From Alphaproteobacteria bacterium RIFCSPHIGHO2_12_FULL_66_14 (lineage in GTDB: Bacteria; Pseudomonadota; Alphaproteobacteria; Reyranellales; Reyranellaceae): a DNA stretch of 34,981 nucleotides. This document shows positions 2,583-34,981 of the stretch, piece by piece. The translations under genes were made by a program, and so were the position numbers. Under the pieces are notes generated by a model. That model was not told the DNA's origin. It did not search any database and worked only from the letters and a program-made list of their open reading frames with translations. The stretch spans positions 1-34,981 of the forward strand of contig MEMN01000119.1 in assembly GCA_001767945.1 (NCBI GenBank), given 5' to 3'. Each line of letters opens with the position of its first letter. Position 1 is the first letter of the stretch.

Positions 2583-3761
2583 TCAGCTCGCGAGCGACGC
2601 GACCGCGGCGTCGACGCCGCCCGGCGCGAACGGCACACCCGCCGTCTTCATCGCGAGCTCGGTCGTCGCGAGGCAACCCAGCAGCATCGGCTCGTTGAGG
2701 TCGCCCATGTGGCCGATGCGGAAGACCTTGCCCATCAGCGGTCCCAGTCCGCCGCCCAGCGACAGGTTGAAGCGGTCGATCGCGGCCTTGCGCATCGCGT
2801 CGGCGTTGACGCCTTCCGGCATCATCACCGCCGTCACCGAGTTGGAAAGACGGTCCGGCGACTGGCCGTAGAGCTGCGGACCCCTGCCGTCGGCGCCCCA
2901 GGCGCGCACGGCGGCGCGGGTCGCTTCGGCGAGGCGGGCGTGGCGGGCAAACACGCCGTCGAGGGTTTCCTCCTCGAGCATTTTTAGCGATTCCTGCAGG
3001 CCGAAGAACATGTGCACCGGCGCCGTGCCGATGAACTTCTGCGGCGCGCGGCCGTTCATCAGTTCCCAGTTCCAGTAGTGGCGCGGCGCCTTGTTCTTGC
3101 GCGACAGCTCGATCGCCTTGTTGCTGACGCCGGTCAGCGACATGCCGGTCGGCAGCATCAGGCCCTTCTGGCTGCCGCCCACGGTGACGTCGATGCCCCA
3201 GGCATCCATCTTGTATTCCATCGATGCCAGCGAGGAGATGGTGTCGCTGAGCAGCAGGGCGGGATGCTTGGTCTCGTCCATGGCGCGGCGGATGTCGGCC
3301 ACCGGCAGGACCATGCCGGTCGCAGTCTCGTTGTGAACGGTCAGCACGGCCTTGATCTCGTGCGCCTTGTCCTTGGCGAGGCGCTCCGCGAGCTTCCCGA
3401 CGTCAGCGCCGGTGCGCCAGTCGGCGGCGAAGGTTTCCACCTTGATGCCGAGATTGACCGCCATTTCCGCCCAGCTCAGCGAGAAGTAGCCGGTCTCGAC
3501 GATCAGGACCGTGTCGCCGGCGGAAAACAGGTTGGCGAGGGCCGCTTCCCAGGCGCCATGGCCGCTGGCGTTGTACATGTAGAGCGTCTGGTCGGTCTTC
3601 AGGACCCTCTTCACGCCGGCATGGCAGGCATGCTGGATGGCCAGGAACTCGTCCGACATGAAGTCCAGGACCGGCCGGTCCATGGCGCGCAGCACACGGT
3701 CGGGGATGTTGGTGGGGCCGGGATTGTTGAAGAACTGACGTCCGCGCGGTTTGGCGTTCAC
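2583..3761 (-). CDS. Serine-glyoxylate / alanine-glyoxylate type aminotransferase (class V, PLP)
   Basis: About 392 residues, the usual size for serine-glyoxylate aminotransferases. From the proposed start, NNPGPTNIPDRVLRAM (12-27) is the family N-terminus, Asp173 in LLLSDTISS contacts the PLP ring nitrogen, and Lys199 in GGSQKGLMLPTG forms the Schiff base. The enzyme would move an amino group between Ser, Ala or Asp and a small keto acid such as glyoxylate. I prefer the GTG start at 3761, preceded by GGAG at 7-base spacing; ATG codons at 3794 and 3860 lack ribosome binding sites, and 3860 nearly collides with the divergent gene. It is divergent from a second PLP enzyme gene. Related enzymes include BhcA of the beta-hydroxyaspartate cycle, but the aldolase of that cycle is not in the window. 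Confidence 0.85.
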   Translation of the reverse strand: MNAKPRGRQFFNNPGPTNIPDRVLRAMDRPVLDFMSDEFLAIQHACHAGVKRVLKTDQTLYMYNASGHGAWEAALANLFSAGDTVLIVETGYFSLSWAEMAVNLGIKVETFAADWRTGADVGKLAERLAKDKAHEIKAVLTVHNETATGMVLPVADIRRAMDETKHPALLLSDTISSLASMEYKMDAWGIDVTVGGSQKGLMLPTGMSLTGVSNKAIELSRKNKAPRHYWNWELMNGRAPQKFIGTAPVHMFFGLQESLKMLEEETLDGVFARHARLAEATRAAVRAWGADGRGPQLYGQSPDRLSNSVTAVMMPEGVNADAMRKAAIDRFNLSLGGGLGPLMGKVFRIGHMGDLNEPMLLGCLATTELAMKTAGVPFAPGGVDAAVASLAS

Positions 3762-33170: not shown

Positions 33171-34160
33171 ATGAACAAGTTTGATCGCCGTGGGTTTTTG
33201 AGTGGAACGGCCGGCGCCGCCGGCTTGGTGATGCTGGGCGGCCTCGCCGTGTCGGCCCGTGCCGCCGGTCCTTTGACAGTCGGTGTGCTGATCCCGGGCT
33301 CCAAGTCCGACAAGGGCTGGATGGAGTCGGGCTACGACGGACTGAAAGCCGTGGAAAAGAAGCTCGGCGCCAAGATCACCGTGAAATACATCGAGAATGT
33401 GAAGTTCGGCGACATGGAGCAGGTGCTGGTGGCGCTGGCCGGCAAGAACGAGCTGGTGATCGGCGTCGGTGGCCAGACCCAGGCCTCGGTCTTCAAGGTG
33501 GCGCCGCGCTTCCCCAAGGTGAAGTTCGCCATCATCGGCGGCAACGCCGACCCGAAGAAGCCCGCCAACGTCTCGGGCTACGACGTCCGCCAGGCCGAGA
33601 TCGGCTTCGTGGCCGGTGCCGCGGCCGCCATGCTGTCCAAGAACGGAGCCGTGTCCTACGTCGGCGGCCTGGAAATCCCGGCCATCAAGAACACCGGCAC
33701 GGAATTCGGCAACGGCGCGCGCTACGTCAATCCGAAGATCAAGTACATCGAGAATTATACCGGCGACTTCGATGACGTCGCCAAGGCCAAGGAAGCCACG
33801 CTCGCCGCCATCTCCCAGGGCGCCGACGTGCACTACCATATCCTCAACCTCGGCCTGCGCGGCATGGAGCAGGCGGCGCGCGAGAAGGGCACGCACGTCA
33901 TCGGCAGCTACACCGACCGCTGCGGCACCGATCCGCTCTACGTCGCCTATTCGGTCACCGGCGTCGGTTTCCAGGTCGAGTATGCGATCGAGCAGGCCGC
34001 GGCCGGCACCTGGAAGCCCGAGTTCAAGCCTTTCGGCCTGGCGATGGGGCCGAAGTCCTCCGACATGGTCATCTGCAAGGGCACACCCGAACAGAAGGCC
34101 AAGATCGAGGAGATCAAGAAAGATCTCCTGTCGGGCAAGATCAAGGTGCTCGACGCCTGA
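33171..34160 (+). CDS. BMP-family (PnrA-like) ABC transporter substrate-binding protein
   Basis: A 329-residue periplasmic binding protein. The N-terminus DRRGFLSGTAGAAGLVML is a twin-arginine signal (Arg6-Arg7), cleaved near ARA-A (residues 30-33). The mature part has TVGVLIPGSKSDKGWMESGYDG, the family N-terminal motif, and KVKFAIIGGN and VSGYDVRQAEIGFVAGAAAA. BMP proteins bind nucleosides, purines or related heterocycles. The start has GGGGGAG at 7-base spacing. The ATPase frame of the same importer begins in an overlapping CTGA at its stop. Confidence 0.92.
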   Translation: MNKFDRRGFLSGTAGAAGLVMLGGLAVSARAAGPLTVGVLIPGSKSDKGWMESGYDGLKAVEKKLGAKITVKYIENVKFGDMEQVLVALAGKNELVIGVGGQTQASVFKVAPRFPKVKFAIIGGNADPKKPANVSGYDVRQAEIGFVAGAAAAMLSKNGAVSYVGGLEIPAIKNTGTEFGNGARYVNPKIKYIENYTGDFDDVAKAKEATLAAISQGADVHYHILNLGLRGMEQAAREKGTHVIGSYTDRCGTDPLYVAYSVTGVGFQVEYAIEQAAAGTWKPEFKPFGLAMGPKSSDMVICKGTPEQKAKIEEIKKDLLSGKIKVLDA

Positions 34161-34981
34161 GCCCGCTTCTTTCCCTCCAGGGCCTCGGCAAGCGCTTCGG
34201 CGGCCTGCAGGCCCTGGAAGGCATCACGCTCGATATCCATGCCGGTACCGTTCATTGCCTGCTGGGCGAAAACGGCGCCGGCAAGTCGACATTGTGCAAC
34301 CTGATCTTCGGCGTCTATGCGCCCAGCGCCGGACAGATGCGGTTCGGCGGGCAGGCGTGGCTGCCACCCAGCCCGGCCGAGGCGCTGGAGCAGGGCATCG
34401 CCATGGTGCACCAGCATTTCAGCCTGGTGCCGCGCATGACCGTGGTCGAGAACCTGATGCTGGGCCAAGCCAAGGGCGTGCTCAATCGCGCCGCCTTCGC
34501 CGCCCGCATCAGCGACATCGCCGATCGCTTCGGCTTCGTCCTCGACCCCAACGCCGTCGTCGGCGAGCTCTCGGTGGGCGAACGCCAGCGCGCCGAGATC
34601 GTGAAGTGCCTGATGCGCGATCCGAAGCTGCTGGTGCTCGACGAACCCACCGCCGTGCTGCCGCCTTCGGAAATCGGCGCGTTGCTCGATATCTGCCGCC
34701 GCGTCGCCGACTCCGGTCGTGCCGTCATCCTGGTGACCCACAAGCTGGCCGAGATCGCCAAGGTCGCCGACAAGGTGGCGGTGCTGCGCACCGGCCGGCT
34801 GGTGGCCCAAGCCGACATGGCGACGGCCGACATGGGCCAGCTGGTCCAGGCCATGGTCGGCCGCGAGGTGAAGCCGCTCGACGTGGCACTCTCCGATTCC
34901 AAGGGGGGCGATGAGCAGGACGAGGGACCGGCGGAAGCGAAGCCGGGCTTCGCCTTGGTGTGCGACGGCCTCACGGTGCAG
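34157..34981 (+). CDS. ABC transporter ATP-binding protein (nucleoside/sugar type, double ATPase), partial, apparent CTG start
   Basis: A frame open for 275 codons to the window edge encodes the first ATPase domain of a RbsA/NupA-type double ATPase. Walker A is GENGAGKST (37-45), the Q-loop is in MVHQHFSLVPRMTV, the signature is LSVGERQRAEIVKCL, Walker B is LLVLDEPTAVL, and the H-loop histidine is in LVTHKLAE. The second domain is just beginning (FALVCDGLTVQ) at the edge. Family members begin M-x-PLLSL-x-G; here the matching first codon is CTG at 34157, overlapping the upstream TGA, with AAGGTG at 8-base spacing. No ATG, GTG or TTG occurs in frame before the Walker A motif. The gene should continue right, followed by permease genes. 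Confidence 0.85.
   Translation, partial: MSPLLSLQGLGKRFGGLQALEGITLDIHAGTVHCLLGENGAGKSTLCNLIFGVYAPSAGQMRFGGQAWLPPSPAEALEQGIAMVHQHFSLVPRMTVVENLMLGQAKGVLNRAAFAARISDIADRFGFVLDPNAVVGELSVGERQRAEIVKCLMRDPKLLVLDEPTAVLPPSEIGALLDICRRVADSGRAVILVTHKLAEIAKVADKVAVLRTGRLVAQADMATADMGQLVQAMVGREVKPLDVALSDSKGGDEQDEGPAEAKPGFALVCDGLTVQ

Follow-up and report, generated by a model that had tools for sequence, protein, structure and literature searches.

Where does translation of a transporter ATPase begin when its reading frame offers no ATG, GTG or TTG ahead of the nucleotide-binding loop? The question is raised by a locus at the right end of the window, by which we mean the whole stretch of 34,981 nucleotides analysed here (bases 1-34,981 of a 35,845-base contig from a draft genome). 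Upstream lies a gene for a BMP/PnrA-like substrate-binding protein (33171-34160, plus strand, ATG start, TGA stop), which matches Pfam Bmp at 2e-42 and carries a twin-arginine-like N-terminus, MNKFDRRGFLSG. The ATPase gene, the first part of which occupies 34157-34981 on the same strand, crosses the window edge and is complete, as an ORF of 511 codons, on the contig, which ends at 35845 (eight codons read as N). It encodes a double ABC ATPase with its first domain inside the window (ABC_tran, 1.1e-33). A Bmp-family binding protein, an ABC ATPase and two adjoining permeases together constitute a BMP-type ABC importer; the permeases were called as the two downstream membrane proteins of the related loci L042 and L043, read from sequence alone.

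The CTGA junction in the window

The junction reads AAGATCAAGGTGCTCGACGCCTGAGCCCGCTT, in which the binding-protein gene stops with TGA at 34158-34160 and a CTG occupies 34157-34159, being composed of the last C of the Ala codon GCC and the TG of the stop. The original prediction held that the ATPase frame lacks ATG, GTG and TTG ahead of Walker A, and this was borne out: no such codon occurs between the in-frame TGA bounding the frame upstream (33773-33775, plus strand) and a TTG at residue 46 (34292-34294, plus strand), downstream of Walker A (GENGAGKST, residues 37-45 counted from the CTG). It had further described the CTG as overlapping the stop in CTGA, with AAGGTG 8 nt upstream, and both can be read directly: the four-nucleotide CTGA lies at 34157-34160 and the AAGGTG, which is Shine-Dalgarno-like, at 34143-34148, each on the plus strand. 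The 3' end of this genome's 16S rRNA, GGATCACCTCC, includes the anti-Shine-Dalgarno sequence and, since it contains CACCT, AGGTG can pair with it over five bases. The CTG itself falls within a predicted hairpin. As foreseen, ORF calling restricted to ATG, GTG and TTG truncates the gene: the ATPase then begins beyond Walker A, at MCNLIFG, and the nucleotide-binding loop is lost, as it is in the relative L043.

A single CTG means little by itself, since near-cognate codons are frequent in this GC-rich frame (further CTG codons lie at -237, -147, -84, +48 and +57). What lifts the CTG at 34157 above chance is the combination of its N-terminal place, its four-nucleotide overlap with the stop and an identical junction in seven genomes.

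Conservation and history of the junction in Reyranella

Among named bacteria, those closest to this genome belong to Reyranella, and a search of the 65 genomes of that genus yielded 17 orthologs with 79-100% identity. The junction, GACGCCTGAGC, is identical in seven of them (L009-L014 and L016; hereafter the CTG group), corresponding to seven of the nine species of the inner clade and answering the question of which start codon close homologs carry at this position. The claim that the CTG stands where the family has its initiating methionine is matched by a distant homolog from Phormidium, L063, whose ATG (ATG AAT CCG TTA) occupies the same place. Within the CTG group, a canonical start is absent from -96 to codon 35 in six of the seven genomes; one of the six, L014, carries a TTG just past this stretch, at codon 36, and a GTG well before it, at -147. 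In the seventh genome, L016, a GTG stands at codon 3, and the start may have moved back to this canonical codon. L042, a locus from the same genome, shows this in-frame gain (CTG AGC GTG) at position 3007. Near-cognate codons common to all seven genomes occur at -84, 0, 48, 57, 66, 102 and 105, and of these only the CTG at 0 closely precedes the conserved segment LGKRFG (codons 10-15), which is invariant in all 17 orthologs. A distant upstream canonical start was considered for the group and rejected, as the frame stops at varied places and offers no common start; in L011, the frame is closed by a stop at -96, which rules it out.

In the other ten orthologs, the in-frame start codon lies 6-21 nt upstream of the CTG position (ATG in eight, otherwise GTG or TTG), and a spacer of 3-255 nt, as derived from the coordinates of stops and starts, separates it from the binding-protein stop, while the CTG group has no spacer. 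Upstream starts in homologs, which had been named as grounds for abandoning the CTG, thus do occur, but inside the spacer that the CTG group is missing. The CTGA overlap requires TGA as the stop of the binding-protein gene, which fits the presence of TGA in all seven CTG genomes, compared to two of the ten others; TAG or TAA is found in the remaining eight. Outside the genus, a scan of named genomes showed a canonical start near the N-terminus in all 72 homologs.

Several features of the relatives are recorded here in their own right. In some Bradyrhizobium loci, the corresponding junction reads CTGA (L075, L077, L082-L084) or TTGA (L081, L085, L086), and these loci share a conserved GTG two codons downstream. 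In L015, L017, L022 and L023, GCAGCGGCG or GTAGCGGCG is predicted to pair with a downstream CGCCGCTGC-like sequence in a strong hairpin that encloses the ATG (-25.6 to -29.8 kcal/mol for 60 nt); given this position of the ATG, upstream ribosomes may be needed for translation of the ATPase in these relatives as well. Codon 4 of the ATPase is CTT in six of the seven CTG genomes and CTG in all ten canonical-start relatives; codon 5 is CTT in six of the seven and CTG or CTC in the ten.

Gene trees place the seven CTG genomes in one group of nine species together with L015 and L017, which start with ATG, and L014, a CTG genome, is outermost. That the CTG group had one clean origin was compatible with the ATPase tree (p-AU 0.135), and was rejected by the binding-protein tree (0.014) and the joint tree (0.016). 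A comparison of rpoB did not resolve the branching order. L015 and L017 retain the spacer end GCGGCGATGG, as in the outer relatives L022 and L023, and their first 75 coding nucleotides are nearer to the outer relatives, although over the larger part of the gene they cluster with the CTG genomes. Because these two loci fall inside the CTG group and have an outer-like beginning, recombination of a 5' block is likely, as far as the alignments can tell. The history is most simply explained by one deletion of spacer and start, later reversed by recombination in the lineage of L015 and L017; two losses, or a deletion that spread by recombination, may also account for it.

Within the limits set by contig ends and N bases, the ATPase frame is open in each of the seven CTG genomes, and dN/dS is 0.114 in this group compared to 0.165 in eight canonical-start relatives. 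Judged by these substitution patterns, the gene is under purifying selection in the CTG group. The signal is weak in codons 2-16 (27 synonymous versus 34 nonsynonymous codon differences), in part because of one Gly/Ser difference at codon 16, and codons 18-48, counted from 1, show 140 synonymous to 18 nonsynonymous differences. In the binding-protein frame, the C of the CTG falls on a fourfold synonymous position, where A or G would yield ATGA or GTGA and leave the protein unchanged, and it is invariant in all seven genomes. However, 40 of the 96 fourfold sites nearby do not vary either and eight of 22 Ala codons are always GCC, so that the retained C is no proof of selection for CTG: the fourfold-site test gave it no conservation beyond that of its synonymous neighbours. 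What the comparison indicates is that CTG is tolerated.

Probable re-initiation at the CTG and competing explanations

We consider it probable that the gene encodes an intact ATPase subunit of a BMP importer, started at the CTG at 34157 by re-initiation after deletion of the spacer and the former start. Such a deletion in a Reyranella ancestor would have brought the ATPase frame up against the 3' terminus of the binding-protein gene, after which the C from GCC and the TG from TGA would together have been taken as start codon. With its 16S tail able to reach AAGGTG, a ribosome terminating at the UGA of the binding protein could re-initiate on the overlapping CUG with initiator fMet-tRNA, giving the N-terminus fMet-Ser-Pro-Leu-Leu-Ser-Leu. 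From the sequences, we infer initiation at CTG, methionine as the first residue and a termination-reinitiation route.

The four-nucleotide CTGA overlap places the two genes at the short distance expected of a termination-reinitiation pair, and overlaps of this kind (-4) are the commonest layout for termination-reinitiation in prokaryotes, where coupling drops steeply with distance (PMC10666635). In CTG and canonical groups alike, the ATPase gene overlaps the first membrane gene by ATGA (-4), and the first membrane gene overlaps the second by TGATG (-1) in most loci read in both groups; in the CTG genomes, the whole operon would therefore be linked by stop/start overlaps. This layout, together with the CTGA itself, makes it likely that translation of the ATPase is coupled to that of the binding protein. 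CUG is a very poor start codon, reaching 0.86% of AUG and making up 0.024% of bacterial starts (PMC11497404), and as a poor de novo start it leaves re-initiation directly after release of the binding protein, by the same ribosome, as the most plausible route. The ATPase may be made in smaller amounts than the binding protein. Binding proteins are made in excess, which lower ATPase output would fit.

The same elements could also serve ordinary de novo initiation at the CTG through AAGGTG, independent of the upstream ribosome, and the five-base match of AGGTG to the genome's own anti-Shine-Dalgarno sequence at 8 nt spacing speaks for it. We regard this as unlikely, though the least so of the alternatives: AAGGTG is present in five of the seven CTG genomes and two have AAGGTC only, the motif codes for a conserved Lys-Val of the binding protein and is also present where the start is elsewhere, the CTG lies in its hairpin and CUG alone is very inefficient (PMC11497404). 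Initiation farther downstream, at a Leu codon (CTG 17 or 20) or another near-cognate, would yield a shortened ATPase. Both CTG codons are present in all seven CTG genomes and codons 2-16 diverge more at the amino acid level than those that follow, but the CTG at codon 17 is also found in all ten canonical-start relatives, which identifies it as ordinary Leu coding, and a start there would forfeit the first strand and the invariant LGKRFG; this possibility is improbable.

Terminating ribosomes might instead slip by -1 or suppress the stop and thereby produce a fusion of binding protein and ATPase, as some fusion protein arises by stop suppression and frameshifting at an AUGA overlap in Mycobacterium tuberculosis (PMC11260477). 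Yet GAC GCC TGA contains no evident slippery run and the two genes lie 3-255 nt apart in ten relatives. Given the twin-arginine-like N-terminus of the binding protein, a fusion would also take an ATPase that belongs in the cytoplasm across the membrane, and we hold this route to be very improbable. That the gene is decaying, with its start lost and no useful translation, would agree with the missing canonical codon and the weakness of CUG (PMC11497404), but the frames are open in seven genomes, dN/dS (0.114) is below that of the canonical-start relatives and, in L042 and L043, both membrane genes begin downstream with intact frames, all of which makes decay slightly more remote still. An error of base-calling or assembly comes to mind in a draft genome of many contigs, with the junction 1.7 kb from a contig end; the original prediction had singled out the base at 34157 for such scrutiny. 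The identical base in seven separately assembled genomes, recorded from different isolates, makes this explanation negligible. Start of the gene at CTG, the core of that prediction, is thus supported by every check that could be run on sequence data.

Known systems and implications

The operons of BMP/PnrA-type ABC importers likewise encode a binding protein, a double ATPase and a pair of membrane proteins. The nearest named families are NCBIfam ABC_BMP_B6 and ABC_ATP_B6, and the proteins of the window score far under their curated cut-offs (70.2 versus 400 bits for the binding protein; 237.3 versus 670 bits for the 275 ATPase residues in the window). The junction shares with ATGA and GTGA overlaps (Huber et al., 2023; PMC10666635) the four-nucleotide overlap with TGA, the unidirectional gene pair and subunits of one complex as products. 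However, -4 overlaps are written ATGA or GTGA in that study, the text of which does not contain CUGA or CTGA, whereas the proposed Reyranella start is CTG. With the rare bacterial CUG starts (PMC11497404; Belinky et al., 2017, PMC5622118), it has in common the single first-base mismatch to the fMet-tRNA anticodon; it differs in being common to seven species and in overlying the preceding gene's stop. Reconstruction of 68,906 ancestral starts gave only four switches to CUG when counts are summed (Belinky et al., 2017; PMC5622118). The CUG of Caulobacter dnaA, which has a Shine-Dalgarno sequence, gives a toeprint in vitro, yet is unused in vivo (PMC8443254). This weighs against a CTG start in Reyranella, although in dnaA a canonical AUG lies downstream of the CUG, which the Reyranella ATPase lacks. 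Termination-reinitiation in caliciviruses and influenza B offers a parallel in that a re-initiating ribosome kept near the stop tolerates non-AUG starts (PMC5972666), but in the viral case an RNA element tethers the eukaryotic 40S subunit, and in Reyranella there would be a bacterial ribosome with at most a Shine-Dalgarno-like motif. In the literature, we found nothing direct on Reyranella transporters or on CTG starts in Alphaproteobacteria, and a paper on reinitiation at non-canonical codons concerned eukaryotic expression.

By all available sequence tests, then, the CTG would be a conserved start of a known, rare kind, and its mechanism does not appear to be new on present evidence. Natural CTG starts conserved across species have seldom been documented, and this case comes with a clear before and after: relatives that have spacer and canonical start, and a group that has neither. 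It also carries a practical warning, as calling restricted to ATG, GTG and TTG turns a healthy-looking gene into an ATPase without Walker A. The locus provides a clean natural construct with which to ask if termination-reinitiation relaxes the choice of start codon in bacteria. We propose, tentatively and with considerable doubt, that re-initiation at an overlapping stop does so, such that CUG, almost inert in de novo initiation, could function well enough within CUGA to be retained as the sole start of an indispensable transporter subunit through several speciations; genes of this type may be common, and annotations may cut them short systematically.
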